The notes beneath the pieces were generated by a model. The model saw only the letters and a program-made list of their open reading frames with translations, ran no database searches and had not been told where the DNA came from. From Leptolyngbya sp. CCY15150 (GTDB lineage Bacteria; Cyanobacteriota; Cyanobacteriia; RECH01), in contig NZ_JACSWB010000207.1 in NCBI RefSeq assembly GCF_016888135.1, positions 124,001 through 188,000 on the forward strand: 64,000 bases of DNA. Reading direction: 5' to 3'. The position numbers and the translations under genes were made by a program. How positions within the stretch are numbered: the stretch's first letter is position 1; every line of letters starts with the position of its first letter. Positions 5,399-41,548 of this stretch are shown here, in pieces.

Positions 5399-7282
5399 AT
5401 GCTAGGAACAACCATCGGCGGACGTTATCACATCACGGAACACCTCGGTGGCGGGGGCTTTGGGCAAACATTCCTGGCCGTCGATCGCCATCTACCGGGC
5501 AAGCCAACCTGTGTGGTCAAGCAATTAAAACCTCAAGTAGACGGTCAGGCGGCTTGGCAAGCGGCAACGCGCCTGTTTGACCGCGAGGCAGAAGTGCTGT
5601 ATCAACTGGGCAACCATGATCAAATTCCTCGGCTCTTTGCCCACTTTGAAGAACACCGAGAATTTTATCTGGTGCAGGAATTTGTAGAAGGGCGGGTTCT
5701 TAACAAAACCATTAAGAAAAACGTCTGTTTCCCTGAAGATGAAGTTATTGACTTTCTACAGGATGTTTTATCAACCCTAGCCTTTGTTCATGAACAGCAG
5801 GTCATCCATCGCGACATTAAGCCATCCAATTTAATTCGCCGCCAGCATGATCAAAAAGTCGTGTTGATTGACTTTGGAGCCGTCAAGCAAATTGGCTCTC
5901 AAACCATCAACCTAGAAGAAGAGTCCACCTTTACCATTGCCGTAGGCTCATCGGGGTATATGCCCAACGAGCAGTTGGCGGGCCGCCCTCGCTACTGCAG
6001 CGATGTGTACTCCCTGGGCATTGTGGGCATTCAAATGCTGACTGGTCTATCGCCCTCCAAGCTGCGCTACGATGCCCGCACCGGTGAACTGCTGTGGCGC
6101 GATCGCATCCAGACCATCAGCCCAGCCCTAGCCGACATCATCGATTTGATGGTGCGCTATGACTATCGCCAGCGCTACCAATCCGCCGTAGAAGCCATGG
6201 AAGCTCTGCAGGTTCTGGCATCGCCGAAGCACGACACGGTGATTCTACCCACCGTCAATTCAGCGGTTAAATCTGCTCAGCGCGATCAGCTATCCCTAGG
6301 CGATCGCACCGTACCGCCTGCCAAATATTCCGACGCCCATTTCGTGTGGTTTGAGCGCGCCGATGAGCTGTTTCAGCAGCAGCGCTACCGCAAAGCCATT
6401 GAATGCTACGACAAGGTGATCCAGATTGCCCCCAATGACTACCTGGCTTGGTTTAAGCGCGGCATTGCCTTTGAAAACCTGCATCACTACGAAGATGCCG
6501 CTAGTTCCTATCAGCGGGTGATTGAAGTTCAGCCCAATGATTATCTAGCCTGGTTTAAGCGCGGCAAGGCCTTGGAACACCTGAAACGCTACCCAGAAGC
6601 GCTGGCCGCCTACGACAAGGTGATCCAGATTCAACCGGGCAACTATTGGGCCTGGCACGACCGGGGACAGGTGCTGGAGCATTCCGGGCAGTTTGATGAA
6701 GCCGTGGAGGCCTACGATCGCGCCGTCAACCTCAAGCCTGATTTCCACCTAGCTGTGGAGAGCCGTAAGCAGGTGCTCATGAACCAGCGCAAGGTCGATC
6801 AGCTTTACCATCTCCAGCACTATCAAGAGGCGATCGCGGCCTGTGCTCGCACTCTGCGCGATGATCCAAGCGATGCCAATGCTTGGTTGATGCAGGGCAT
6901 GGCCTTGGAAAATTTGCAGCGCTATCGGGAAGCAGCGTCCTCCTACAGCAAAGTGGTGAAGCTACAGGCCGATGACCATATTGCTTGGTTTAAGCTAGCA
7001 GCCCTGCTGGAACAACTGAAAAAATATAAAGAAGCCGCAGCCGCCTACGCCAAAGTATCGCAACTGCAGCCCCACAACCAATGGGCCTGGCATGATCGGG
7101 GGCGATCGCTAGAGCAGATGCAGCAGTACGAATCAGCGATCGCTGCCTACGACCAAGCTCTGCGCATCAATGCCGAATTCGAATCCGCCCGAGATGGACG
7201 GCTGCGATCGCTCGCCCAGCTCAAACAGCAAATGCAGCAAGATTCCGTCACCTACCGTCCACCCACCCAATATGTGGTGTGA
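5399..7282 (+). CDS. serine/threonine protein kinase with TPR repeats
   Basis: 627-residue soluble Hanks-type kinase of the kind abundant in cyanobacteria. Kinase domain about residues 9-275: glycine loop LGGGGFGQTF, catalytic lysine in CVVKQLKP, HRDIKPSN catalytic loop, DFGAVKQ in place of DFG, then SSGYMPNEQ in the activation segment (the usual APE is replaced, as is normal for this bacterial subgroup). Residues about 310-605 are at least seven TPR-like repeats built on AWFKRG...ALE.L.RY.EA...Y.KVIQ..P, a scaffold for protein partners. No transmembrane segment separates the two, unlike PknB-type receptors. The target is unknown. It is followed by a convergent gene. Confidence 0.93.
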   Translation: MLGTTIGGRYHITEHLGGGGFGQTFLAVDRHLPGKPTCVVKQLKPQVDGQAAWQAATRLFDREAEVLYQLGNHDQIPRLFAHFEEHREFYLVQEFVEGRVLNKTIKKNVCFPEDEVIDFLQDVLSTLAFVHEQQVIHRDIKPSNLIRRQHDQKVVLIDFGAVKQIGSQTINLEEESTFTIAVGSSGYMPNEQLAGRPRYCSDVYSLGIVGIQMLTGLSPSKLRYDARTGELLWRDRIQTISPALADIIDLMVRYDYRQRYQSAVEAMEALQVLASPKHDTVILPTVNSAVKSAQRDQLSLGDRTVPPAKYSDAHFVWFERADELFQQQRYRKAIECYDKVIQIAPNDYLAWFKRGIAFENLHHYEDAASSYQRVIEVQPNDYLAWFKRGKALEHLKRYPEALAAYDKVIQIQPGNYWAWHDRGQVLEHSGQFDEAVEAYDRAVNLKPDFHLAVESRKQVLMNQRKVDQLYHLQHYQEAIAACARTLRDDPSDANAWLMQGMALENLQRYREAASSYSKVVKLQADDHIAWFKLAALLEQLKKYKEAAAAYAKVSQLQPHNQWAWHDRGRSLEQMQQYESAIAAYDQALRINAEFESARDGRLRSLAQLKQQMQQDSVTYRPPTQYVV

Positions 7283-20420: not shown

Positions 20421-23400
20421 ATGCCCTTCACGACCAGTGTGCTGCGTGGCGGTATTGCCATCAATGAACTGCTGATTGATCCGACTAGCGCTACAGCCAA
20501 CATCGATACAGATGGCAATGGCATTGCTGGTGACACGGATGAGTTTATCGAACTACGCAACGTGGGTACCCGTCCCATTGACCTCGGCGGTTTGGAACTC
20601 TGGGATGGGGAAGCGGGTCGCTGGTTTACCTTTCCTGACGATGCGGTTCTGCAGCCGGGCAGCTACGCCGTGGTGGTGACGGGGGTGCAGGCAGGCGGTA
20701 GCTTACCTATCTTTTCTCCCAATACCTTAGTGTTTGATGCCGGAGCTAGCTCCAGCATTTTCAATAATAGCGGCGACAACGTTGTTGTCTACGATCCTAG
20801 CGACGACGCCTATATCCAACTGCGCTATGACGGAGCGATCGCCGCCAATCCCAGCAGCTACAATGGTTTCTCGCCCACCGCCACCCTCGTCAACACCGTG
20901 GAAAACTGGGGCAATGACAATGCCGGACGCTCCCTGGTGCGCAGCCCCGATGGCAGCGATACTATTGTCAGTCAAGACACGATCGCCTTTGGGCTCAACG
21001 CCACGCCAGGCGGCGCAAACATTACATTTACCGTCACCAATACCAATGACGAGGGTGCCGGATCGCTACGGCAGGCCATCCTAGCGGCCAATGCGGCCGG
21101 GGGAGGAGCGATCGCCTTCGCTATTCCCGGAGATGGGCCCCACACCATTGCCCTAGCCACCGCCCTACCGGCCCTGACGGCAGCGATCGCCATTGATGGC
21201 TACAGCCAAGCAGGGTCAGATCAAAACACCCAAACCGAGGGCAGCAATGCCGTCCTCACCATCGTCCTGCAAGGCCAGGGCACCGGAAGCTTTGCAGGGC
21301 TATTGCTCAATGAAGGAGCGGCGGGCAGCGTCATTTCAGGTTTAGTCCTCAACCAGTTTCAGCGGGGGATTGAAATCAACACCCGCGATGTAGTGGTGCA
21401 GGGCAACTATATCGGCACCGACGCCACGGGATTGGTCGTCAACGCTTCAACCCGCAACGATCAGGGACTTCTCGTTAGCCAATTTGGCACCAACAGCTAT
21501 ATCGGCGGTACCCCCCCCGCTAGCCGCAACGTTATTTCCGGCAACCAAATCGGCATCTTTTCCTTCAATACCGCCAACTTAGCCGTCCAGGGCAACTACA
21601 TCGGTGCGGCGGCAGATGGTACCACCCTGTTGGGCAACGGCATCCTGGGCATCCAGCTTAGCGGCACCAATAACAGTTTGATTGGGGGGGCAGGTGCAGG
21701 TGAAGGTAATATCATTCGCGGTGGATTTGCCAGTATTGATGTCTTCAACGCCAATGCCAACACCATCCAAGGCAACGCGATCAGCAATTTTGGCAACCAG
21801 GCCATTAATCTGCGCTTTGGTTCCAGCGGCAACCGCGTCGGCGGCGTTCAGCCTGGAGAAGGCAACACCATCACTAATGTTAATGGCAACGGCGTTACTG
21901 TTGAGGATACCGCCACTAATAACGCGATTCGCGGCAACTCAATTACCTTGGCTGGAGGTGGATTGGGCATTGATCTGGGTAATAACGGTCAGACCATCAA
22001 TGATGCTTTGGACGCAGATATCGGCCCCAACGGATTCCAAAATACGCCCATTCTCGATGTCGCCAACGGCACCACCATTACCGGCACCTTCAACAGCAAT
22101 CCCTTCATCAACGCGGTCATCGACATCTACGCTAGCAGTTTGCCCAATGGTCAAGGAGCAGTGTATCTGGGCAGCCAAGCGGTGACCACCAACGGAGATG
22201 GGAACGCTACCTTTAGCCTAGAAGCTCCCTCTGTCTTTGGGCGTCCCCATATTATCGCGACGGCCACCAGTGAAGCTGGCAGTACCTCCGAGTTTTCTGC
22301 GAGCATCCAGCGGGTTGCCACCGTCCAGATCACCACCCTCGTGGACAGGGCGGACGAAAATGCCGGAACGCCAGGCAGCTATCAACTCAGCCGGGACGCA
22401 GCCACAGGAGACATTACGGTGGTTCTCACCGTGGGCGGCAATGCTCAGTTCACCGCCGACTATAGCCTAGACATTAGCGCCGGCAGCCTGACCATTCTCA
22501 GCCCCACGCAGGTGCAGGTCGTCATTCCCGATGGGGTAGCATCGGTCAATCTATCGGTGGTGCCGATTGATGATGACTTTGCCGAGGCGGATGAAACCAT
22601 CACCCTGACGCTGGAGGAGAACGTCGCCTACGGGGTCGATCGCACCCACAACAGCGGTCTAGTCACCCTTGGCTTCAATGACCTAGTCGTCACTGACGCG
22701 GGCGATCGCGGCGAAGGCACCCTCCGCCAAGCCATCCTCAATGCCAATGCCCTCGGCGGCGGCACGATCACCTTCAATATTCCCGGCGACGGCCCCCACA
22801 CCATTCTTCTCGATGAAGCACTGCCGATCCTGACCGCACCGATCACGATCCAGGGCTATAGCCAACCGGGCTCGGTGGTCAATACCCAAGGCGTGGGCAG
22901 TAACGGAACGATCGCGATCGCCCTCGATGGCAACGGACTAATTGCGACTGGACTAGTCCTAGGCGCTGGATCGGAGGGCAGCGTGATTCGCGGCTTACAG
23001 ATTAGCAACTTCAGCGGCGATGGCATTCTGGTATTAAGTGATGGCCATAGCCTGACGGGAAATTGGCTCACCAACAATGGCGGCAACGGCATTCAGATCA
23101 TCGGTGCAGCGGACACGGTGATTGGCGGCCCTACACCGGGCGATCGCAACGTGATCGACGGCAATGGCCAGGCGGGCATTCGACTGGCGGATATGGCCAA
23201 CGGCCACCGCATCCAGGGCAACGATATTGGGGTCGGTGCGGGCAACGGGACTGGAATTGCGATCGCTGACAGCACGAACACCATCATCGGCGGGTCGGGA
23301 GCCGAGGGCAACCGCATCGCCAACCACGAAGGCAGCGGCATTGTGGTGAGCGGCAACGCCCAGGGCAACCGCATCCAGGGCAACCAGATTGTCAACAACG

Positions 23401-26400
23401 GTGGTTTGGGCATTGACCTCGGCGGGGATGGAGTCACGGTCAATGACCCCACAGATGCGGATACGGGAGCCAATGGTCTGCAAAACTTCCCGGTGCTCAC
23501 CGCAGCGGAATTGATCGAAGGCAATGCGGTGGTCATGGGTAATTTTACCAGCACGCCCAACACCAGCTTCCGCCTAGATTTTTTCGGCAACATCGCCCTA
23601 GACAGTAGCGGCCATGGAGAAGGACAGACGCCTTTAGGGTTTGTGATTGTCAACACGGACGACAGCGGCACAGTGACCTTCACGGCATCCTTAGGGAATG
23701 CTGCCCTAGGGGAGTTGATCACCGCCACGGCCACTCACCTAACCACCGGGGATACTTCAGAATTTTCCAGCGGCGTAGCGATCGCCACCCCCCAGATCAA
23801 TCTCGCGACCGGCGACCTCAGCCTTACAGAAGGTACAGGCGTTGATAGCCTCGGGATCTTCACCGTCACCCTATCTCAGCCCAGCAGCCAAACCGTCACC
23901 GTAGACCACAGCACCTCAGGCATAGAAGCGATCGCCGACCGTGACTTTCTTGCCCACACCGCCACGCTTACCTTTGCCCCTGGCGAAACCCTGAAAACCA
24001 TGACGGTGACGGTCATTGGCGATTCTCTCCATGAAGATACAGAAACTTTTCAGATCAGTTTAGATAACGTTACCAACGCTACCTTAGGTAACCCAGGGGC
24101 GATCGCCACCATCCTCGACGACGACCTGCCTCCCGTGCTGACCATCGCCAACAGCAGCGGCAGCGAAGGTGAGGAGCAACTTATCTTCAGTATGATCCTG
24201 GATGCTCCTTCTGGTAAAAACATCACCGTCGATTATCAAACTAGCAACGGGACAGCGATCGCCCCCGCCGACTACAGTGCCATTCCCTCCAGCACCCTCA
24301 CCTTTGCCCCCGGCGAAACCCTGCAGCTAGTGACGGTGACGGTGATCGACGATCTGCTCGACGAGGCAGACGAGACCTTTCTCATCAACCTCAACAATGG
24401 CACCAATGTCACGTTGGGCAATAGCTCCGCGACCGGCACCATTCTAGATAATGATCTAGCGCCGATCGCCTCCATTAGCGATGCTCTGGGTAGCGAAACC
24501 GATGGGCAGGCCGTCTTCACCGTCACCCTGGATACTCCCTCCGCCCGCCCAATTACCGTCGGCTACCGCACCGCCAACGATACAGCGATCGCGCCGGAGG
24601 ACTTCACCGCCGTCACCAACGGAGCCGTCACCTTTGCCCCCGGTGAAACGCTCCAGTTGGTGACCGTTGCCATCCTCAACGACAATCTGGACGAAGCCGA
24701 TACCGAGCAGTTCCGAGTGGAGCTGAGCAGCGAGAGCAACGCCCGTCTCGGCACCAGCGTCGGCATCGGCACGATTGTAGACAACGACCTGCCCCCCATT
24801 CTGACCGTCGGCAACGTCACGGCCCTCGAAAGCAACGGGGAAGGCGATGGTCAAATGGTGTTTACCCTGACCCTGAACACGCCCTCCGGTCGAGATAGTA
24901 CCGTAAACTACCAAATCAGCAACGGTACCGCGATCGCCCCTTTCGACTATGTGGCTCCCGCCGGCATTCTTACCTTTGCAGCAGGGACAACTGTTCAAAC
25001 TCTCTCCCTGCCGCTGATCAACGACAGTCTGGATGAAGACAATGAAACCCTCCAACTCAACCTCAGCAACCCTGTTAACGTCACCCTAGAGCGGGAAAGC
25101 GCTACGGGAACCATTCTGGACGATGATGCACCGCCCGTCCTGACGGTTCAGAATGCGATCGCCACAGAGCAGGCCGGACAGATAATCTTCACCCTCGACC
25201 TCAGCCAGGCGTCAGGTAAACCCATCACCGTCAACTATCGTACAGACGACGACACCGCCATCGGCTCGGTTCACTATACGCCTATCCTAGCCACACCGCT
25301 GACCTTTGCCCCCGGCGAAACTCGGCAATGGGTCACCGTCACCATCGCCGATGATGACCTAGATAACGAGGATCGCATCGTTCAACTGCGGCTGAATGGA
25401 GCCACCAACGCCGAGCTCGCTAGCGATCGCGCCCTCGGCACCATCCAAGATGACGACCTGCCCCCCACCTATAGCATCAGCGACCTCACGGTGCTGGAAA
25501 ATGCTGGAGCGGCCGTGTTCACCGTCAACCTCGATCGCCCCTCTGGCAAAGAGATTACCCTCGACTACCGCACCCAAAACGGTAGCGCCATCGCCCCCGA
25601 CGACTACACCGCCGTAGCGGGCGATCGCCTCACCTTTGCCCCCGGCGACACCCAGCGCCTGATCACCATCAACATCCTAGGCGACGACCTGCACGAGGAC
25701 GACGAGACCTTCCAACTGCTGCTAGGCAATGCCACCAACGCTCTTCCCGGCACCACAACAGCGATCGCCACCCTGGTTGATGATGATCTGCCGCCCGTGC
25801 TGTCGATCACCGACCGCAGCTTCAACGAAGGAGCCGGCCAGACTATCTTCACCGTCAGCCTCGATCGCCCCGCCGGCCGCACCGTGACCGTCAACTACAG
25901 CACCGAGGATAACAGTGGGATAGCTGGGCAGGACTATCTGGCCAACAGCGGCACCCTCACCTTTGCCGCCGGGCAAGTTCTGCAAACCTTGACGGTCGGC
26001 ATCATCAACGACCTCAGCTTTGAACCCGAGGAAACCTTTCAGGTGGGGCTGTCCAATGCCGTCGGGGCCACCCTATCCGCCCCCCAAGGCACCGCCACCA
26101 TCCTCGACGACGATCCTCAACCCACCGTCATCCTAGTCGGCACCACGGTCGCAGAAGGGGACAGCGGCACCACCCTCGCGCCGATGACCGTACGCCTCAG
26201 CAACCCCAGCAGCGAAACCATCACCCTCGCCTACAGCACCCAAGACGACACCGCCCGCCGCGATGAAGACTACTCAGCGATCGCCGGCAGTTTGACCTTT
26301 GCCCCTGGCGAAACCCAAGCGATCCTATCCCTCACGGTCATCGGCGACCTAGTCAACGAAGAGGATGAACGCTTCAACGTTGTCCTCAGCAATCCCGTCA

Positions 26401-27929
26401 ACACCACTCTAGGCACAAGTCTAGCCACCGTCACCCTCCTCAACGATGACGCCCTACCTCAACTCACCATCCGTGACATCACGGTTTTAGAAGGAGATAG
26501 CGGCACTCAAAATGCGGTGTTTGAAGTACAGGTCAACGGCTTTGCCAGTGCTCCAATCACGCTTGACTACGCAACTCAAGATGGTTCAGCGATCGCCGGG
26601 GACTATACTCCCACCCAAGGGCAACTTACCTTACCCGCAGGTGAAACCACAGCTTTCATCACCGTTTCAGTCGTCGGCGATCGCGCCTTTGAAGACGACG
26701 AAACCTTTAGCCTAGCCTTAACCAACCTTGTGAACGCTGATCCTACGCCCGTGGTTGGAACCGCTACGCTGGTGAACGACGACGATCGCCCCTCTATTAT
26801 TATCCGTAATGTGCGCCAGATAGAAGGCCATCGTGGGCAGCAAGATGTCGTCATTCCAGTCACATTAACAGCCCCAAGTTCAGAAGTGATTACGGTCAAC
26901 TACGCCACCGCCAACCGCACAGCCGTTGCCGGAGAAGACTATCTTGCCCAAGACGGTATCCTCACCTTTCAGCCCGGCGAAACCATCCAGCAGATTTCCT
27001 TACCCATCGTGGGCGATCGCCGCTTTGAGCGCAACGAACCTTTCTTCATCAACCTCAGTGATCCCACCGCTGCCGAGATTAGAAAAAATCAAGGCGTGGT
27101 TAGAATTCTCAACGATGATCCAACCCCCACCCTCACGATGAGGGCAGTACGGGTGCAGGAGGGCGATCGCGGCCGACGCTTTGCAAACATTGTCCTCCGC
27201 CTCAACCAGGCGAGTGGCTTGCCCGTTCAGATAGGATATCAAACGATAGACGGCACAGCCCAGGTTGCCAACAGCGATTATGGACGGGTGCGAGGGCGGC
27301 TAGTCTTCCGACCAGGACAAACCCGCAAGGTCATTAAAGTGCCGATTTTCGGCGATACCGCCGTGGAACCCAATGAGCAATTCCGGCTGCAGCTCACGAG
27401 CGTTCGAAATGCTCAAACCAGAAGACGCAACGCCACCGTGACGATTCTCAATGATGACCGCGCTACGCGATCGCTCTCCGTCAACGATGGCATCACGCTC
27501 ACCGGAGATGCTGGGCCCAACGTTTTGATCGGCACGGCAGGCGACGATCGCCTGCGGGGCGGCGACGGAGATGATATCCTGCGAGGCGGCAACGGCAGCG
27601 ATCGCCTTGTGGGCGGTGACGGAGATGACCTGCTCATCAGCGGCCATGGTCAAACGATCCTCACAGGCGGGGCAGGACGCGATACGTTCTTATTTACCCG
27701 CAACCGTGGCACCCACATCATCACCGACTTTGAGCTAGACCGAGATGTGATCGATCTACAAGATCTGTTCAGCGACAGCAGCAGTCCAGGAGCCATCTTC
27801 CGCCGTGAAATCGAGCTGGTGCAAACGGGCAATGATACCTCGGTGTTCATTAGCGGGCGATCGCAGCCGTTGATCGTGCTGCAAACTATCAATGCTGATC
27901 GCGTCAACCAGGATCATCTCCTCCTGTAG
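20421..27929 (+). CDS. giant lamin-tail/beta-helix/Calx-beta/RTX repeat protein
   Basis: 2502-residue repeat protein, probably exported by type I secretion because it lacks an N-terminal signal and ends in RTX calcium-binding repeats (GGDGDDILRGGNGSDRLVGGDGDD, about 2365-2430) plus a C-terminal RTX domain. Order: lamin-tail domain (about 12-120; FIELRNVGTRPIDLGGLELWD), beta-helix module (about 200-630; TNTNDEGAGSLRQAILAANA), one Calx-beta-like unit (about 633-750), a second beta-helix (about 755-1120; DAGDRGEGTLRQAILNANA), then eleven tandem Calx-beta repeats (about 1125-2348), each with TFAPGET and closing DDDLPP or similar. Likely a cell-surface adhesin or sheath protein that binds calcium. 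AAGG at 20408-20411 precedes the ATG. No type I exporter gene is in the window. Confidence 0.93.
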   Translation: MPFTTSVLRGGIAINELLIDPTSATANIDTDGNGIAGDTDEFIELRNVGTRPIDLGGLELWDGEAGRWFTFPDDAVLQPGSYAVVVTGVQAGGSLPIFSPNTLVFDAGASSSIFNNSGDNVVVYDPSDDAYIQLRYDGAIAANPSSYNGFSPTATLVNTVENWGNDNAGRSLVRSPDGSDTIVSQDTIAFGLNATPGGANITFTVTNTNDEGAGSLRQAILAANAAGGGAIAFAIPGDGPHTIALATALPALTAAIAIDGYSQAGSDQNTQTEGSNAVLTIVLQGQGTGSFAGLLLNEGAAGSVISGLVLNQFQRGIEINTRDVVVQGNYIGTDATGLVVNASTRNDQGLLVSQFGTNSYIGGTPPASRNVISGNQIGIFSFNTANLAVQGNYIGAAADGTTLLGNGILGIQLSGTNNSLIGGAGAGEGNIIRGGFASIDVFNANANTIQGNAISNFGNQAINLRFGSSGNRVGGVQPGEGNTITNVNGNGVTVEDTATNNAIRGNSITLAGGGLGIDLGNNGQTINDALDADIGPNGFQNTPILDVANGTTITGTFNSNPFINAVIDIYASSLPNGQGAVYLGSQAVTTNGDGNATFSLEAPSVFGRPHIIATATSEAGSTSEFSASIQRVATVQITTLVDRADENAGTPGSYQLSRDAATGDITVVLTVGGNAQFTADYSLDISAGSLTILSPTQVQVVIPDGVASVNLSVVPIDDDFAEADETITLTLEENVAYGVDRTHNSGLVTLGFNDLVVTDAGDRGEGTLRQAILNANALGGGTITFNIPGDGPHTILLDEALPILTAPITIQGYSQPGSVVNTQGVGSNGTIAIALDGNGLIATGLVLGAGSEGSVIRGLQISNFSGDGILVLSDGHSLTGNWLTNNGGNGIQIIGAADTVIGGPTPGDRNVIDGNGQAGIRLADMANGHRIQGNDIGVGAGNGTGIAIADSTNTIIGGSGAEGNRIANHEGSGIVVSGNAQGNRIQGNQIVNNGGLGIDLGGDGVTVNDPTDADTGANGLQNFPVLTAAELIEGNAVVMGNFTSTPNTSFRLDFFGNIALDSSGHGEGQTPLGFVIVNTDDSGTVTFTASLGNAALGELITATATHLTTGDTSEFSSGVAIATPQINLATGDLSLTEGTGVDSLGIFTVTLSQPSSQTVTVDHSTSGIEAIADRDFLAHTATLTFAPGETLKTMTVTVIGDSLHEDTETFQISLDNVTNATLGNPGAIATILDDDLPPVLTIANSSGSEGEEQLIFSMILDAPSGKNITVDYQTSNGTAIAPADYSAIPSSTLTFAPGETLQLVTVTVIDDLLDEADETFLINLNNGTNVTLGNSSATGTILDNDLAPIASISDALGSETDGQAVFTVTLDTPSARPITVGYRTANDTAIAPEDFTAVTNGAVTFAPGETLQLVTVAILNDNLDEADTEQFRVELSSESNARLGTSVGIGTIVDNDLPPILTVGNVTALESNGEGDGQMVFTLTLNTPSGRDSTVNYQISNGTAIAPFDYVAPAGILTFAAGTTVQTLSLPLINDSLDEDNETLQLNLSNPVNVTLERESATGTILDDDAPPVLTVQNAIATEQAGQIIFTLDLSQASGKPITVNYRTDDDTAIGSVHYTPILATPLTFAPGETRQWVTVTIADDDLDNEDRIVQLRLNGATNAELASDRALGTIQDDDLPPTYSISDLTVLENAGAAVFTVNLDRPSGKEITLDYRTQNGSAIAPDDYTAVAGDRLTFAPGDTQRLITINILGDDLHEDDETFQLLLGNATNALPGTTTAIATLVDDDLPPVLSITDRSFNEGAGQTIFTVSLDRPAGRTVTVNYSTEDNSGIAGQDYLANSGTLTFAAGQVLQTLTVGIINDLSFEPEETFQVGLSNAVGATLSAPQGTATILDDDPQPTVILVGTTVAEGDSGTTLAPMTVRLSNPSSETITLAYSTQDDTARRDEDYSAIAGSLTFAPGETQAILSLTVIGDLVNEEDERFNVVLSNPVNTTLGTSLATVTLLNDDALPQLTIRDITVLEGDSGTQNAVFEVQVNGFASAPITLDYATQDGSAIAGDYTPTQGQLTLPAGETTAFITVSVVGDRAFEDDETFSLALTNLVNADPTPVVGTATLVNDDDRPSIIIRNVRQIEGHRGQQDVVIPVTLTAPSSEVITVNYATANRTAVAGEDYLAQDGILTFQPGETIQQISLPIVGDRRFERNEPFFINLSDPTAAEIRKNQGVVRILNDDPTPTLTMRAVRVQEGDRGRRFANIVLRLNQASGLPVQIGYQTIDGTAQVANSDYGRVRGRLVFRPGQTRKVIKVPIFGDTAVEPNEQFRLQLTSVRNAQTRRRNATVTILNDDRATRSLSVNDGITLTGDAGPNVLIGTAGDDRLRGGDGDDILRGGNGSDRLVGGDGDDLLISGHGQTILTGGAGRDTFLFTRNRGTHIITDFELDRDVIDLQDLFSDSSSPGAIFRREIELVQTGNDTSVFISGRSQPLIVLQTINADRVNQDHLLL

Positions 27930-32520: not shown

Positions 32521-33069
32521 ATGAATCGATTGACGCTGGAATGGGTGGAGCATGAGCAACACAAATCGTTTACGGTGACCGATCAAATGCTCACGAAACA
32601 GGTGGGTAGGGTCAGGCTAGGGCGAGATCCGTCTCGATGTGATCTGGTGTTATCCCATCCCACGGTCTCAGGTCTGCATGTCGAACTCTTCTATGATCCT
32701 CCCCGTTCAGCCTTCTACGTCCATAGCCTCCGCCCCAGCAATCCTCCCCTGCTCAATCATCGTCCCATCCTAGAGGACGAGCAGCCCTTAGCAGAGGGCG
32801 ATCGCCTCTGTCTAGGCCTGGTTGAGCTGCACATTGGAACCATCGTCTTAGAGACCGTCGCTCCCACCATCGTCACCACCCCGGCAGTCGAGCATTCCGG
32901 TGATACGACGCTGCCCCTGAAGCCACTTAAGCCCACGGCCCCTTCTGCCTATGGGCTCAAATGCCCCCGCTGTGGCCAAGTCTCGTCCTACGACTATCTC
33001 AAGTCTGGCTGCCCATGGTGTGGCGCGTCCCTAGCCGCCGCCAACAGCGTACTCATGGAAAAACCCTAG
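32521..33069 (+). CDS. FHA domain and zinc-ribbon protein
   Basis: 182-residue soluble protein. Residues about 25-105 form an FHA phosphothreonine-binding domain (VRLGRDPSRCDLVLSHPTVSGLHVELF), with the conserved Gly-Arg and Ser/His pattern. Residues about 145-170 form a C4 zinc ribbon (LKCPRCGQVSSYDYLKSGCPWCGASL). It probably reads phosphorylation by Ser/Thr kinases such as the one at 5399. The partner is unknown. Confidence 0.85.
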   Translation: MNRLTLEWVEHEQHKSFTVTDQMLTKQVGRVRLGRDPSRCDLVLSHPTVSGLHVELFYDPPRSAFYVHSLRPSNPPLLNHRPILEDEQPLAEGDRLCLGLVELHIGTIVLETVAPTIVTTPAVEHSGDTTLPLKPLKPTAPSAYGLKCPRCGQVSSYDYLKSGCPWCGASLAAANSVLMEKP

Positions 33070-33535: not shown

Positions 33536-34495
33536 ATGCCCTTTACCATTGAATCAGCCCGCAGTATTTTTCCCGGCACCCTTTCTGCCGATGCTGTGCC
33601 AGCTACAATTGCTCGATTCACTCAACTGAATGCCGAAGATCAACTAGCGCTGATTTGGTTTGCCTACCTGGAAATGGGAAAAACCATCACCATCGCGGCT
33701 CCCGGTGCAGCCAACATGCAGTTTGCCGAAAATACGTTGAATGAAATTCGGCAAATGTCCTTCCAAGAGCAGTCTCAAGCCATGTGTGACTTGGCGAACC
33801 GGGCTGACACCCCCATCTGCCGCACCTACTCCATGTGGTCATCGAACATCAAGCTTGGCTTCTGGTACCAGCTTGGACAGTGGATGGATGAAGGTCTCGT
33901 CGCTCCTATTCCTGAAGGCTATCAGCTCTCCGCCAACGCCGCCGCTGTCCTGCAAGCCATCCGTAACCTAGAGTCTGGTCAACAAATCACCGTGTTGCGC
34001 AACTCGGTCGTAGACATGGGCTTTGATCCCAAAAAGCTCGGTTCCTACCAAAGCGTAGCAGAGCCCATCGTGCCTCCTGTTGTAGCCGATAAGCGGACAG
34101 CCGTTACCATTGAAGGGATTGATAACCCCACCGTGCTGAGCTACATGAACAACATGAATGCCAACGACTTTGATGCGTTGATTCAATTGTTCACCGATGA
34201 TGGTGCGCTCCAGCCTCCCTTCCAACGCCCGATTGTCGGTCGTGACGCAGTTTTGAAGTTCTTCCGGGAAGACTGCCAAAACCTTAAGCTGATGCCCGAA
34301 CGAGGTGTTTTGGAACCCGCTGATGAAGGCTACACCCAAATCAAAGTCACCGGTAAAGTACAAACCCCTTGGTTTGGTGCCGCTGTGGGTATGAACATGG
34401 CCTGGCGTTTCTTACTCAACCCTGAGAATAAGATCTACTTTGTGGCTATTGACCTCTTGGCATCACCCAAGGAACTGTTAAATCTGACCCGTTAA
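33536..34495 (+). CDS. ocp: orange carotenoid protein
   Basis: Blue-light-activated quencher that binds a keto-carotenoid, attaches to the phycobilisome core and dissipates excess energy as heat. 319 residues: all-helical N-terminal domain to about 165, linker, then NTF2-like C-terminal domain from about 195. Key residues match the OCP1 type: Tyr44 and Trp110 around the carotenoid in the N-domain, Arg155 of the interdomain salt bridge, and Tyr203 and Trp290, which I read as the counterparts of the Tyr201 and Trp288 that hold the carotenoid carbonyl (numbering shifted by +2 through a longer linker). crtW and frp follow on the same strand, completing the photoprotective module. Confidence 0.98.
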   Translation: MPFTIESARSIFPGTLSADAVPATIARFTQLNAEDQLALIWFAYLEMGKTITIAAPGAANMQFAENTLNEIRQMSFQEQSQAMCDLANRADTPICRTYSMWSSNIKLGFWYQLGQWMDEGLVAPIPEGYQLSANAAAVLQAIRNLESGQQITVLRNSVVDMGFDPKKLGSYQSVAEPIVPPVVADKRTAVTIEGIDNPTVLSYMNNMNANDFDALIQLFTDDGALQPPFQRPIVGRDAVLKFFREDCQNLKLMPERGVLEPADEGYTQIKVTGKVQTPWFGAAVGMNMAWRFLLNPENKIYFVAIDLLASPKELLNLTR

Positions 34496-34543
34496 TCTCT
34501 GTTCAGATATCTGCTCAGATCATGAACGTCTGATCTAACACTG

Positions 34544-34579
34544 CCTCCATTCCCTGATCTAAGGTCACGGGAATGGAGG
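34544..34579 (+). terminator. hairpin between ocp and crtW
   Basis: Perfect 11-bp stem CCTCCATTCCC/GGGAATGGAGG with a 14-base loop, 49 bp after ocp and 31 bp before crtW. Followed by TGCTTTC rather than a long T run, it may let part of the transcription continue into crtW. Confidence 0.65.
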
Positions 34580-34610
34580 TGCTTTCAAGTGATTCAACTA
34601 TATTTCCTGC

Positions 34611-35363
34611 ATGGCGTCTTCCCCTGAGTCAATGACTCGCCGCCCCCTCTCTGAATCAGGGAGCTGGCTGGGCGTTGGATGGGCGATCGCACTTTTCCTG
34701 ACTTGGATAGGAAGCTTGCTGGGGCTTCTGTACATACCTATTGCTCAGCTCCCTTGGCTAGTTGTCCTGGTTGTGATCATAGGGCGTACAGTTCTCCAGA
34801 CCGGCTTATTCATCGTTGCCCACGATGCAATGCATCTCAGTCTTCTGCCTCAACATCCCCGGCTCAATCATGCCATGGGTCATGTTGCGGTCGGTCTGTA
34901 TGCATTCTTATCCTACCAACACTGCCGCCAGCAGCACCGCGACCACCATCGCTGTCCTGCTCAACTTGGCGACCCTGATTTCCACGACGGAGTGCATTGC
35001 CATCCGGTGGCTTGGTATCTCAAATTTATGGGGGAATACCTGTCAGGCTACCGCTTAGTGCAGCTCATTGTCAGTTGGATCGGCGTATTGGGTATCTTGG
35101 TCTATGGCTTTCAGGTGTCGCCGACGAATGCGATCGCCTTTTGGGTCGGCCCACTCGTACTCAGCTCTTTCCAGCTTTTTATCTTTGGGACATATCTACC
35201 CCATCGTCACAGTAATCAGGGAAACCCTAATCGCCATCGAGCCGTGAGCAGCGACTATCCCGTTTGGCTGTCGTTTCTCACCTGCTATCATTTGGGCTAC
35301 CACTGGGAGCATCACGAGTATCCCCATCTGCCTTGGTACCGCCTGCCGGCTGCCCGCCGGTAG
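34611..35363 (+). CDS. crtW: beta-carotene ketolase CrtW
   Basis: Membrane di-iron oxygenase that adds 4-keto groups to beta-carotene, giving echinenone or canthaxanthin, the pigments OCP binds. 250 residues with the CrtW histidine boxes HDAMH (71-75), HRDHH (109-113), HRH (198-200) and HWEHHEYPHLPWY (231-243), and hydrophobic helices near 23-43, 48-68 and 150-190. Placed 115 bp after ocp on the same strand and before frp, it very likely supplies the OCP chromophore. Initiation at ATG 34611; a second Met at residue 8 is possible. Confidence 0.95.
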   Translation: MASSPESMTRRPLSESGSWLGVGWAIALFLTWIGSLLGLLYIPIAQLPWLVVLVVIIGRTVLQTGLFIVAHDAMHLSLLPQHPRLNHAMGHVAVGLYAFLSYQHCRQQHRDHHRCPAQLGDPDFHDGVHCHPVAWYLKFMGEYLSGYRLVQLIVSWIGVLGILVYGFQVSPTNAIAFWVGPLVLSSFQLFIFGTYLPHRHSNQGNPNRHRAVSSDYPVWLSFLTCYHLGYHWEHHEYPHLPWYRLPAARR

Positions 35364-35721
35364 AGGCAATCAAGAAACTGCCCTCTTAAGCATCCTCGGC
35401 TGATGGTTCCATCATGACTGAACATTGCAGTTGCGACTAACCTAAGGATGACGAAGATACTGCCGTTGGGCTGAGCTGATCAAATCCTGCCCCTACCGCA
35501 ATCTGCTACGGCCGTTGAGGCTATGCCTATCGGACTTAATAAATAAGTATTTGTACTTACTTGCTCCCGCAACCCAGGTTTAGGTTTGACGGGGCCTATC
35601 GTCCTGCTGTGGGAACAACTGTAAGCATTAGATTATTTCAAAATTTTGCTCTAAATTGGGTAGATTTCATTGAATAATCGCGGCAAAATAGAAAGACTGA
35701 TGATAATTATAAGGTTTCAGA
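35364..35721. promoter_or_regulatory. crtW-frp spacer with operator-like palindrome
   Basis: 358 bp without a gene, AT-rich towards frp. It contains the perfect inverted repeat TAAGTA-TTTG-TACTTA at 35544-35559. Spacing and AT content suggest frp has its own promoter here. The protein that would read the palindrome is unknown. Confidence 0.4.
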
Positions 35722-36048
35722 ATGCAAGGAATAGATACAGACTGGACAACTGAGGAGAAGGCGATCGCTCAAAAGGCCTTTCAAGCAGCCTATGAACGAG
35801 AAATTAGCGCCCTCGTCAGCGATGTTAAGACTAAGATGCACAGCATCACAGGGCTAGACGACCTTTGGCAGGTTCATGACTACCTCAGTGCTCGGCGACA
35901 TGATATTGATGGCAAGTACGACTATCGATATTCAGTCCTCATCTTTGTGTTCTCCCAGCTCGTGCGGGAAGGGTGGCTTTACCTAGACGATCTGGATGGC
36001 CTCGATTCTAGCAAGTTGAAGAAGGTGACTGCACTATCGCGTATGTAA
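35722..36048 (+). CDS. frp: fluorescence recovery protein
   Basis: 108-residue helical protein that binds the C-terminal domain of active OCP, speeds its return to the orange form and detaches it from the phycobilisome. The conserved core is clear: GLDDLWQVHDYLSARRHDIDGK, including Trp49, His52, Asp53 and Arg59, which correspond (offset -1) to the functional Trp50, His53, Asp54 and Arg60 of Synechocystis FRP, then SVLIFVFSQLVREGW. AAGG lies 8 bases before the ATG. Third gene of ocp-crtW-frp. Confidence 0.95.
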   Translation: MQGIDTDWTTEEKAIAQKAFQAAYEREISALVSDVKTKMHSITGLDDLWQVHDYLSARRHDIDGKYDYRYSVLIFVFSQLVREGWLYLDDLDGLDSSKLKKVTALSRM

Positions 36049-36090
36049 AAGCGGAGATCAGGCGGCTGTTATACGGCTCAAGCGGCGCGG

Positions 36091-36146
36091 CGTCGGCTTC
36101 ACTAAGCCCCTAAGTAGACAATACTTGGGGCTCAGTGAGGCCGACG
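36091..36146. terminator. long bidirectional terminator hairpin
   Basis: Stem of about 24 bp with one bulge and two non-canonical pairs (left arm begins CGTCGGC, right arm ends GCCGACG), loop AGACAAT. It lies between convergent frp and the CAP gene and would serve both. Confidence 0.7.
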
Positions 36147-36184
36147 TTGACAGCACCCTTGCCCCAGAAGCTACGGCTAACTAC

Positions 36185-37156
36185 CTATTGAGACGAAAGC
36201 CGGAAGCCGTTATTCGGGTTAACGGTTAAGGTGGAACCACATACCATACGACTTGCCATACTGGCTGGAAGATAGCCACTCATCTGCAAGCCTAGACTAC
36301 CTTCGCACTGATCTTCACGCAACGTAATTTCCCGAGTTTCGCCAGGTGCTAGAGCATCACCCAAAATATTAATCTCGCCGAGGGTAACACTCTCTAGGTT
36401 AACACTACCGTTATTAACCACATTAAGCTGAGTCGTAAATCTGATGTAGTTAATAACGCAGACGATACGATACCCTGCATGGGGACCACAGCCCGCTCCA
36501 GTATGTGTCCAGCTAGGGTCAAAAATATTGGTACGATGCCCCCGACTAGGCACACCATCATCAACAATTAAATCCAGCACCACTCGTTGCCCCGTGCTTG
36601 GCCCATAGGCAATATTCTCCCCGCTGGATACATAAAGCGCTCCGGTGCGGCCTATCCGTTGTGCAGTGGTACTGCCGTCAGAGCCATCGTGCCCCATACT
36701 ACCACTAGCCTGATCTTGAGCATGGGCTTTAGCAGCCTGGGCAACATTAGGTGAGGCTTCTAGGGTAGAAACCGCCGCCTGTTGACGCAAAAAATCAATG
36801 GCCTCTTGAACAGCTGGCCTTCCTTCCTGCGTTTGAATAGGACGGCAGTTAGGCCCACAACTAATTACACCCTCGTCATTCATATTGGCCAGGCGTTCCT
36901 CCAACAACGGGATCAAGCTGGCTGGATCTTGGCGGACTTGGTTTTGTACGGTAATAATGTCTTGCTCAATCTGCGCCCAGTCATAGGCTTCTTGGGCGTA
37001 AGCTGAGGAACCCAGAGTCAACCAAGGTTGATTTGCAGCGGAGAGTATATTAAAACGATGCGATCCCTGGGAGGTGACTACACCGGCCAGAACTAGAACA
37101 GAGAGCGAAACGCCGCGACGTAACCAGCGGCGAATAAAAACTGAATTATTTTGCAT
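36185..37156 (-). CDS. secreted CAP (SCP/PR-1) domain protein
   Basis: 323 residues. The N-terminus is a signal peptide (RRWLRRGVSLSVLVLAGVV, basic then hydrophobic). The CAP domain covers about 65-245, with AAKAHAQDQASGSMGHDGSDGSTTAQRIGR, GENIAYG and SRGHRTNIFDPSWTHTGAGC, the four family signatures including the paired histidines of the CAP cavity. The C-terminal 75 residues are beta-rich with two cysteines. Exported to the periplasm or outside; function of bacterial CAP proteins is not settled. Codons before residue 30 fit a normal signal, so the ATG at 37156 stands. Confidence 0.88.
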   Translation of the reverse strand: MQNNSVFIRRWLRRGVSLSVLVLAGVVTSQGSHRFNILSAANQPWLTLGSSAYAQEAYDWAQIEQDIITVQNQVRQDPASLIPLLEERLANMNDEGVISCGPNCRPIQTQEGRPAVQEAIDFLRQQAAVSTLEASPNVAQAAKAHAQDQASGSMGHDGSDGSTTAQRIGRTGALYVSSGENIAYGPSTGQRVVLDLIVDDGVPSRGHRTNIFDPSWTHTGAGCGPHAGYRIVCVINYIRFTTQLNVVNNGSVNLESVTLGEINILGDALAPGETREITLREDQCEGSLGLQMSGYLPASMASRMVCGSTLTVNPNNGFRLSSQ

Positions 37157-37974: not shown

Positions 37975-39924
37975 ATGAGTGATCCGCCTCTCCGTTTGCA
38001 ACTAAGTTGGGAAGACCCGGCCACGGGGGAGCTGCGCACTCCTGTGCTATCGTTGCCGATCGCCCTCGGGCGAGACTTTGCCCATATGCCAGCTCAGGTC
38101 GATGGGCAGCGGGTGTCGCGCATGGTGCTAGACAGTGGCCAGGTGTCGCGCTTCCACGCCTTACTCAGGCAAGAGGGTGGTGACGTGGTGGTAGACGATC
38201 AGCGCAGCAGCAATGGCACCTTCGTGAATGGCGATCGCCAAGCATCCGCCGTCCTCAGCGAGGGCGATCGCCTGCTAATTGGCCCCTACACGCTGACGTT
38301 AACCTGGTCGATCGAAGGACAGACCGGGCCGTCCGAGTCCGAGTCCTCAACCAATTCCACCATTCTATTTCCCGAGGCTAGCGCGCCCACGTCGGGAGCC
38401 TCCTTTCCGCCACCGCTCTTTCAACAGCCCCACGTATCGCTACGGGATCTCATGGATACAGGGCTGCCCATCCGCGAATTTGACTATGTGGCCCTCGGGG
38501 CAGGACTCGGTAGCTTTGTCTGGGTAGATCTGTTGCGCCTGGGCGGGGTATCCGCTCAGCAGATTCTGGCCATTGGCATGGAAGCAGTGCCCTACGCCCG
38601 CTACCAGCGTCTTTGCCTCAATTCCCAAATTCCCCCCCATGAACGGCTGCGATCTAACTCAGACTCTTGCCCAGACAATATCTGGGGTTGGCCGAGCTAC
38701 GCTCTACGGGAAGCTTGGGATGATCTGGGTCGCGGCAAGCTTGCCCCTGCCCTACGGTACCTGTGGCAGGTCTTTGCCGAACCGACGCTGGCCGAAACCT
38801 ATACGCCGCGATCGGGGCGGGTGTTTGCCTCCATCGATCGCGAAGCTGCGCGCATTGGCTGGAACCATTGTTTTGACTACGGACGGATTCGCTCCATTCG
38901 CCAAACCACAGATGGACGGTATGCGATCGCCTATTCCCGTTCCACCGCCGACCGCCGCGACCATGCCTTTGTGGTCGCCCGCTACCTACATCTGGCGACC
39001 GGCTACCCAGCGATTCAGTTTCTGCCCGACCTGCAGGCCTATCGAGCCGCCACCCATGACTTTAAAACCGTGGTGAATGCCTACGAAGACCATGACCATG
39101 TCTATCAACACCTGGAAACCTTCGGCGGCACCGTGATGATTCGGGGGCGGGGGATTGTGGCATCGCGGGTGGTGCAGCGCATTTACGAAGCCCGTCAGAC
39201 CAATCCCCAGATCTATCTCCTCCATCTGATGCGATCGCCCAAACCCAGTGGACATAGATTTCGTACCGCCCAGCGACAGGTGAAAAATCACTACGAACTA
39301 CAGCCCTTTAATTGGCCCAAAGCCTGCTGGAGCGGCGACCTGCGGGTAATGCTAGAGCAGGCTAGTCCTTCAGAACGTCAACGACTGCTAGCCGATTGGG
39401 GCGGCACCACCACCGCCGATCGCCATGACTGGCAGCAGATTGTCCAAGAGGGATTGCGCCAAGGCTGGTACAAAATTGAGTTTGGCGAGGTGGAGCGGGT
39501 GGAGCCAAGCACTGGCCAGGGCACCCTGACCCACATTCGCGATCGCGACTTTAAGGGCACCCGCCAACTACAAGCCGATTTTATTATTGATGCCACAGGT
39601 CTAGATGCCCAGGTGTCCGCCAATCCACTGTTGGACGATCTGGTCACCTGCTATGGCTTACCCTTGAATCCCCTAGGACGCCTCGCAGTATCCCAGGATT
39701 TTGAACTTCCTGACCTGCGATCGGGGCAAGGGCGAGTCTATGCGGCAGGGGCGATGACCTTGGGCGGCCCCTACGCAGCGGTGGATAGCTTTTTGGGTCT
39801 TCAGTATGCGGCACTGCGATCGGTGGATAGCTTAGCCGCAGCCAAGGCTCCAGGTCTGCATCGTCTTTCAGGGGGGCGATCGCTCTTGCAATGGATGAAA
39901 TGGGTGATGAACGTTGCCCCCTGA
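37975..39924 (+). CDS. FHA-flavoprotein monooxygenase fusion
   Basis: 649-residue protein joining two modules. Residues about 20-115: FHA domain (LGRDFAHMPAQVDGQRVSR, then DSGQVSRFHALLRQEGGDVVVDDQRSSNGTFVNG), with the phosphothreonine-reading residues intact. Residues about 165-640: flavin-dependent oxidoreductase of the FAD/NAD(P) Rossmann type (FDYVALGAGLGSFVWVDLL, later HLATGYPAIQFLPD, GGTVMIRGRGIVASRVV, DFIIDATGL, GRVYAAGAMTLGGPYAAVDS), closest in feel to SidA/lysine N-monooxygenase-like enzymes. The first dinucleotide loop is GAGLGS rather than GxGxxG. A phosphorylation-controlled redox enzyme is a reasonable guess. Substrate unknown. Confidence 0.83.
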   Translation: MSDPPLRLQLSWEDPATGELRTPVLSLPIALGRDFAHMPAQVDGQRVSRMVLDSGQVSRFHALLRQEGGDVVVDDQRSSNGTFVNGDRQASAVLSEGDRLLIGPYTLTLTWSIEGQTGPSESESSTNSTILFPEASAPTSGASFPPPLFQQPHVSLRDLMDTGLPIREFDYVALGAGLGSFVWVDLLRLGGVSAQQILAIGMEAVPYARYQRLCLNSQIPPHERLRSNSDSCPDNIWGWPSYALREAWDDLGRGKLAPALRYLWQVFAEPTLAETYTPRSGRVFASIDREAARIGWNHCFDYGRIRSIRQTTDGRYAIAYSRSTADRRDHAFVVARYLHLATGYPAIQFLPDLQAYRAATHDFKTVVNAYEDHDHVYQHLETFGGTVMIRGRGIVASRVVQRIYEARQTNPQIYLLHLMRSPKPSGHRFRTAQRQVKNHYELQPFNWPKACWSGDLRVMLEQASPSERQRLLADWGGTTTADRHDWQQIVQEGLRQGWYKIEFGEVERVEPSTGQGTLTHIRDRDFKGTRQLQADFIIDATGLDAQVSANPLLDDLVTCYGLPLNPLGRLAVSQDFELPDLRSGQGRVYAAGAMTLGGPYAAVDSFLGLQYAALRSVDSLAAAKAPGLHRLSGGRSLLQWMKWVMNVAP

Positions 39925-40838: not shown

Positions 40839-41330
40839 TCAATCTAGGCGATAAACAGAACAGTGATCGTCACCAAAGCATCGATGCTCCACAAACTGGA
40901 AGCCGAAACGCTGATAAAAGCGGTGGGCGCGGGTATTACTAGTCAACGGATCAATCAGAACAGCCGTTACATCAGGGTTAGCAAAACAGCGGGATAGAGC
41001 TATCTGCATCATGGTGGTGCCGTAGCCCTTGCCCAACGCTGTAACCTCCCCTATCCAAATGTCGATCGCTCGCAGATGATCAGGCACATCGCCCCAGTAG
41101 TGGCTATCTTCTTGAGCAGGATCAATGATTTGAACAAAACCAATGGGGCGACCCTCTAGCTCTGCAATCCATGGCTCACGCCAAGTGGGAGTGCGGGCTA
41201 GCTCCACCTCCCAACCCCAGTCGTCGTCGCCGTGACTAGCGATGATATGGGGCTGGGCATCCCAATGACGAAGAAGCGCCGCGTCAGCAAGGGTAGCGGG
41301 ACGAAAAGCTATGATGCCGGACTCAGACAT
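40839..41330 (-). CDS. GNAT acetyltransferase, AAC(6')-like
   Basis: 163-residue GNAT enzyme resembling aminoglycoside 6'-N-acetyltransferases of the AacA4/Ib group: IAFRPATLADAALLRHWDAQPHI, WIAELEGRPIGFVQIIDP, IDIWIGEVTALGKGYGTTMM (acetyl-CoA loop, here GKGYGT) and DPLTSNTRAHRFYQRFGF. The chromosomal setting points to an ordinary housekeeping acyltransferase rather than acquired resistance, and the acceptor is unknown. ATG at 41330 matches the usual start; the frame extends 8 codons upstream. Confidence 0.88.
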   Translation of the reverse strand: MSESGIIAFRPATLADAALLRHWDAQPHIIASHGDDDWGWEVELARTPTWREPWIAELEGRPIGFVQIIDPAQEDSHYWGDVPDHLRAIDIWIGEVTALGKGYGTTMMQIALSRCFANPDVTAVLIDPLTSNTRAHRFYQRFGFQFVEHRCFGDDHCSVYRLD

Positions 41331-41548
41331 GGTGGTCACCTGCTGGCGTAACATCAGCTAACTACTCAACCATATTAGTTCAATTGTACTATGACGAGGT
41401 TGTGCGACATAAATCTTTAAACATGGTTTGAGAGAGGGTGGCTGGGCAAAACGGACAAGATGTTCAGACCATTTCTTCCATTGAGCTTGGTAGTATCAGG
41501 TAAAGCAGAGAATCATAGGTACAATTTAAGAACGTTGCGGTGTCTTCG

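Follow-up and report, generated by a model that had tools for sequence, protein, structure and literature searches.

The window analysed here, a stretch of 64,000 nucleotides from Leptolyngbya sp. CCY15150, contains a gene (37975..39924, + strand) in which an FHA domain and a flavin-type enzyme appear to be joined. This raises the question of whether the fusion is real and what such an enzyme might do. The gene is a single open reading frame of 649 amino acids plus stop, and the opposite strand of the same interval is full of stops and not open. The encoded protein consists of the FHA domain (residues ~8–112), a linker and a flavoprotein half of ~500 amino acids. In the window's genome the fusion gene is single-copy, with only one other match, weak and confined to the FHA part. 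We compared the gene with 58 relatives, excluding its own genome. In fifteen of them a long frame matched the enzyme half over most or all of its length, including one (L011) in which the FHA part is cut off by the contig end; the remaining matches were to the FHA domain only. A scan of named genomes resulted in 454 related stretches, of which we kept the best 80, all from cyanobacteria and biased to close relatives. In each of these 80 best loci the same frame includes FHA sequence, in L027 the C-terminal FHA part only, and SRxH is present in 78 of them (L028 has TRFH). In a sample of the phylum, the enzyme was found in 47 of 291 cyanobacterial genomes at 50 places, all open frames of at least 649 amino acids, as scored by the enzyme match and frame length. 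The dN/dS values against two same-genus genomes were 0.045–0.086 for the FHA part and 0.04–0.07 for the enzyme part. Since the fusion recurs in the same frame among both the relatives and the best loci, and both halves show low dN/dS, a frameshift or artefact uniting two separate genes, which the preliminary description had named as one possible refutation, is ruled out. The fusion is real and conserved across many cyanobacteria. That the two parts share one chain is thereby confirmed, and the rarity implied for this architecture gives way to a regular cyanobacterial family. We also rejected a phage or mobile origin, as there was no phage match, no confirmed match in viral contigs and no PADLOC family; the only phage link was one distant fold match to a phage protein.

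The FHA domain (37996..38310, + strand) was matched by PF00498 over residues 32–103 with E=1.7e-13 and 51.2 bits against a cut-off of 20.7. Strands in the model extend over residues 7–112, and pLDDT in this block is mostly 86–96. NCBIfam matches of the 649-residue protein were confined to this part. The phospho-binding positions G32, R33, S58, R59, H61, N80 and N85, lying in what we take to be the phosphothreonine-binding motifs GR, SxxH and NG, are kept in 81–82 of 82 sequences (the window, 79 of the 80 loci and two second copies). From these near-invariant positions, the domain is predicted to bind phosphothreonine. The closest solved FHA domains by sequence are those of the actinobacterial GarA/OdhI, which occur as free proteins and bind metabolic enzymes in trans, whereas the domain studied here is fused to its enzyme.

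The linker (residues 113–150, 38311..38424, + strand) is variable, and its residues 115–141, with pLDDT below 50, are probably disordered. The linker motif IxF[NHD]xxT, searched with an expression that also takes V for I, occurs in 85 of 93 sequences versus a shuffled mean of 0.4, an excess that is inflated by kinship among the 93 sequences. An earlier, different expression had matched 37 of 93 versus a mean of 3.2, and a similar motif in the linker of the FHA-zinc-ribbon protein described below was found in 51 of 70 versus 5.1 shuffled. As a phosphosite read in cis, the motif is no more than a lead, given the inflation by related sequences and the fact that the window's own protein is among the eight of 93 that do not contain it.

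Conservation is highest in the enzyme half, with identities to the window's copy of 55–72% among cyanobacteria and 37% for a homologue from Nonomuraea. Near-invariance extends to two dinucleotide loops, two ATG-type motifs and a number of signatures private to the family; the loops and ATG-type motifs follow the order seen in two-dinucleotide-binding flavoproteins, if they are, as we presume, of Rossmann and ATG type. All of the following lie on the + strand. The first, FAD-type Rossmann loop GAGLGS (residues 175–180, 38497..38514) has G175, G177 and G179 in 82 of 82 sequences and in Nonomuraea. By sequence comparison we then identified the family signature RSNSDSCPDNIWGWPSYA (residues 226–243, 38650..38703), whose core RS.S...PDNIWG.P.YA is kept in Nonomuraea except for Cys232, and the first ATG-type hinge motif LATGY (residues 340–344, 38992..39006). 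The second, NAD(P)H-type Rossmann loop GRGIVAS (residues 391–397, 39145..39165) is present as GxGIVAS in all 82 sequences and Nonomuraea, and the second ATG-type motif DATGL (residues 539–543, 39589..39603) retains D539, T541, G542 and L543 in the same full set. Sequence comparison also revealed the signatures WGGTTT (residues 475–480, 39397..39414) and, near the C-terminus, GGPYAAVDSFLGLQ (residues 597–610, 39763..39804). Nonomuraea lacks the acidic residue past strand 2 (E203). Cyanobacteria largely retain Cys 214, 232 and 451, which do not form a CxxC pair and none of which is Cys in Nonomuraea. We found no conserved redox-active CxxC pair in the enzyme family, which argues against a thioredoxin-reductase mechanism.

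To place the enzyme half among known proteins, we compared it with Pfam, where no family matched at E≤10, with NCBIfam and PADLOC, where none matched, and with PDB sequences, which gave no match and no relative of note. Scattered weak Pfam matches of single family members (Pyr_redox_2 with 1.3e-4 in 1 of 11, Trp_halogenase with 0.002 in 4 of 11, FAD_oxidored in 3 of 11) are hints of possible FAD binding only. Because no Pfam flavin family matched, the assignment as a flavoprotein is based on the model fold together with the motifs. For the structure alignment we left out L027, with its truncated FHA domain; of the 79 other loci 47 were distinct, and after the near-identical L022 was also left out the alignment comprised the window and 46 of the 80 loci. 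The model from these 47 sequences had a mean pLDDT of 77. The first Foldseek matches were the N-hydroxylases PvdA and SidA (PvdA with E=1.2e-16 and TMt 0.64), and the matches include KtzI and, at rank 34, lysine 6-monooxygenase. In VIA the top match was the bacillithiol disulfide reductase YpdA (Z 21.4, rmsd 3.1, 314 aligned), and high Z was also obtained for an FMO (Z 19.1), PvdA (Z 18.3, rmsd 4.2, 358 aligned), thioredoxin reductases and ferredoxin-NADP reductase; 999 of 999 aligned chains had Z≥8. The model thus predicts a two-dinucleotide-binding flavoprotein fold, in agreement with the FAD/NAD(P)-type fold of the preliminary description. With this fold the enzyme half would bind FAD and NADPH.

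Several highly conserved loops of the enzyme half are the least confident stretches of the model, and four that are candidates for lining the active site (225–240, 267–281, 442–457 and 474–482) have pLDDT below 50, so that the FAD pocket is putative. Sensor flavoproteins exist, and these loops would be consistent with a flavoprotein half that is no longer catalytic and would sense nucleotides or redox state, with the FHA domain relaying its state. However, both dinucleotide loops are intact, the enzyme half evolves under the strong constraint given above, and it exists without an FHA domain in Nonomuraea. We therefore regard a sensor as very improbable.

The order of the Foldseek matches, led by PvdA, SidA and KtzI, raises the possibility of a divergent N-hydroxylating monooxygenase of the SidA/PvdA/IucD type (PF13434), which would make a hydroxamate or another N-hydroxylated small molecule and carry the FHA domain as an add-on. 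In hhalign against a true PF13434 member (L132), the GxGLGxF loop, the second GxGxxA loop and the ATG motif are indeed colinear, but the alignment is not significant (E=0.025, probability 2%). Profile alignments with seven flavoprotein loci of relatives were likewise not significant save for a partial match with L133/L140 (E=0.0006), in which the motifs are out of register. The fusion protein has no PF13434 match at E≤10, the sole match in the window's genome lying elsewhere, and past the first Rossmann loop the PF13434 stretch is replaced by the different invariant signature RSxSDSCPDNIWG. A GNAT acetyltransferase of the Acetyltransf_8 kind is encoded close to the enzyme gene (40839-41354, - strand) and would fit such chemistry, yet no siderophore genes recur, by eye, among the frequent neighbour clusters, and a siderophore role deduced from this acetyltransferase was rejected. 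An N-hydroxylase would also leave unexplained the membrane partner described below, which, like the FHA domain, sets the cyanobacterial enzyme apart from the SidA group. We consider this alternative improbable. The SidA-like character proposed earlier thus holds for the fold and fails for family membership.

The enzyme is accompanied by a membrane protein of ~140 amino acids with four helices in the model. A profile of this protein found it in 46 of the 291 sampled cyanobacterial genomes, all of them within the 47 that contain the enzyme; among the latter, G303 is the only genome without a detectable copy. The three genomes in which the enzyme occurs twice also carry two genes for the membrane protein. 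The chance of this overlap would be ~5e-53 if genomes were independent, which they are not. The pair is also gained or lost together inside families; in family f22, G154 has both genes, whereas G024 and G106 have neither. At least five genomes (G108, G161, G200, G206 and G280) have retained both genes even though, for one pair, more than 0.5 Mb of the same contig separates them. The gene is on the locus itself in 43 of the best 80 loci, some of which are cut short, and mostly downstream of the enzyme; in the window's genome it is found on another contig (C217) with its sequence intact. The strict co-occurrence makes the membrane protein an obligate-looking partner of the enzyme. In the second enzyme copy of G280 (L145:3182-5386, - strand), the C-terminal part is gone and the frame of 735 amino acids reads into the membrane protein, perhaps as the product of a deletion.

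Two of three cyanobacterial copies of the membrane protein and the Nonomuraea copy had no Pfam match at E≤1, and the third cyanobacterial copy had one at chance level. The model matched no PDB fold at E≤0.001, which does not by itself show a new fold. The protein contains conserved polar residues, possibly on one face, and if the helices alternate, its conserved N-terminus, second loop and C-terminus would lie on the same face.

The tie to this protein and its polar residues are what would be expected of a membrane reductase, in which electrons from NADPH pass through the four-helix protein to a quinone or another carrier and no monooxygenation takes place. The presence of bacillithiol disulfide, thioredoxin and ferredoxin-NADP reductases among the top VIA matches points in the same direction; YpdA, FMO and thioredoxin reductase share the superfamily fold (Z about 17–21), whereas the cyanobacterial enzyme differs from them by the missing CxxC, by extra conserved segments and by its membrane partner. 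Against such a reductase, no cysteine at all is kept in Nonomuraea, a conserved pair of histidines that could hold heme is missing from the membrane protein, and Foldseek places monooxygenases first, even if superfamily folds do not settle the chemistry. Overall, a pure reductase appears possible but rather unlikely.

The homologue in Nonomuraea gerenzanensis bears on the order in which these parts came together. Its 505-residue protein has no FHA domain and aligns over 98% of the enzyme half, and its stop codon overlaps the start of an adjoining homologue of the membrane protein (E=1e-17). Since this pair does without an FHA domain, the enzyme and the membrane protein look like the old core and the FHA domain like a later layer. 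From this one actinobacterial locus, we infer that the layer was probably added in cyanobacteria. Although classed as a plasmid, the Nonomuraea record (L144), at 11.85 Mb, appears to be a chromosome with the wrong label.

Another FHA protein noted earlier in the window is present as well, at 32521..33069 (+ strand). It has 182 amino acids, with an FHA domain over residues 31–99 (PF00498, E=3.4e-12) and a C-terminal zinc ribbon, recognized by eye from the Cys4 set C148/C151/C164/C167. In 78 of the best 80 loci a homologue is encoded upstream of the enzyme; in the other two, contig ends leave only 36 and 177 upstream bases. It is the immediate neighbour in nearly all 78, so that the window's second FHA protein is the usual operon partner of the enzyme elsewhere. 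In the window the two FHA genes are ~4.9 kb apart, and a similar gap of 5.1 kb is found in L022 of the same genus. The genes in between (33536..37156), for OCP, a desaturase/ketolase-like protein that is presumably CrtW, FRP and a CAP-domain protein, do not belong to the module. The two FHA genes are adjacent in most other cyanobacteria examined. The 291-genome phylum sample, unlike the best 80 loci, contains a clade (G093, G104, G126, G186, G188 and G271, with the second copies in G308 and G280) that has enzyme and membrane protein and no FHA-zinc-ribbon neighbour. In other divergent members (G006, G097, G159 and the second copy of G206) the FHA partner is shorter. In the clade that lacks the FHA-zinc-ribbon neighbour (L151, L154, L155, L160, L161 and L147), the gene after that of the membrane protein is a small one of YHS-like, lipoprotein type, named by eye. 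Of the best 80 loci, 63 have a gene for endonuclease V upstream of the module; in L028 it is on the other strand.

Next, we considered the kinases that might act on this system. The Hanks kinase reported for the window was found at 5399–7282 and carries TPRs. Kinases near the enzyme gene were detected in 9 of the best 80 loci; over the 1.42 Mb covered, this amounts to roughly one kinase per 130 kb. Judged against presumed kinase numbers this is background; kinases near the enzyme gene are not clearly enriched, and we rejected the neighbourhood as proof of gating. In L044, L150 and L158 a Ser/Thr kinase gene directly follows the membrane-protein gene. The nearest stand-alone FHA proteins (38–51% identity) combine an FHA domain with a single apparent membrane helix, and in three of four loci examined their genes neighbour those of Ser/Thr kinases. 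These sister loci are the best hint that Hanks kinases may feed this FHA family. The three loci are L018, L019 and L021, and no enzyme was found in these genomes. Recruitment or gating of the enzyme by Ser/Thr phosphorylation, as proposed in the preliminary description, is plausible as a hypothesis.

A conserved fusion travelling with a small membrane protein suggests a phosphorylation-controlled membrane redox enzyme. We lean modestly towards a reading in which an NAD(P)H-dependent flavoenzyme with two dinucleotide-binding domains works at the membrane through its dedicated four-helix protein, and the FHA domain, in cyanobacteria and usually together with the FHA-zinc-ribbon protein, controls its location or activity. 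The enzyme would dock on a positively charged face of the membrane protein. Its FHA domain would bind phosphothreonine on a partner, which may be the adaptor, the membrane protein or a kinase, and binding would switch the location or activity of the enzyme under the control of a Hanks-type kinase. The likeliest chemistry would be that of a monooxygenase/oxidase or a quinone-type reductase, and we infer the substrate class to be lipid-soluble. More tentatively, and with somewhat less than an even chance in our estimate, the FHA-flavoenzyme, its obligate four-helix subunit and, mostly, the FHA-zinc-ribbon adaptor would form an undescribed phosphorylation-to-redox system, a kinase-controlled membrane oxidoreductase found in roughly a sixth of the cyanobacterial genomes sampled and built on an older pair of enzyme and membrane protein shared with actinobacteria.

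The system is built from known parts, and its fold superfamily is well known. Plant zeaxanthin epoxidase, a class A flavoprotein with one dinucleotide domain and, to our knowledge, no four-helix partner, is a non-homologous precedent for combining a flavin monooxygenase with an FHA domain. Two papers describe this combination, a membrane-soluble substrate and a suspected phospho-control (PMC2483416; PMC12570779). In this eukaryotic enzyme the FHA domain is C-terminal, whereas it is N-terminal here. The enzyme half of the window's protein lacks Pfam matches altogether, those to class A flavin monooxygenases included, and the fold matches presented above are two-dinucleotide-domain proteins. Our search of an open-access library listed no paper on the cyanobacterial FHA-flavoenzyme family.

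Cyanobacteria have many Hanks-type kinases and, as far as we know, few phospho-readers with a defined effector. An enzyme with a built-in phosphothreonine reader offers a direct handle, as identifying its phospho-partner would bring to light the output of a kinase along with a new redox reaction. Because enzyme and membrane protein co-occur so strictly, the system is open to straightforward knockout and pulldown experiments in Nostoc or Anabaena, and the enzyme half and the membrane protein, two families without Pfam models, would gain a role. Elsewhere in the window, positions 20421–27929 (+ strand) encode a repetitive protein of 2502 amino acids that appears Calx-beta-like by eye.
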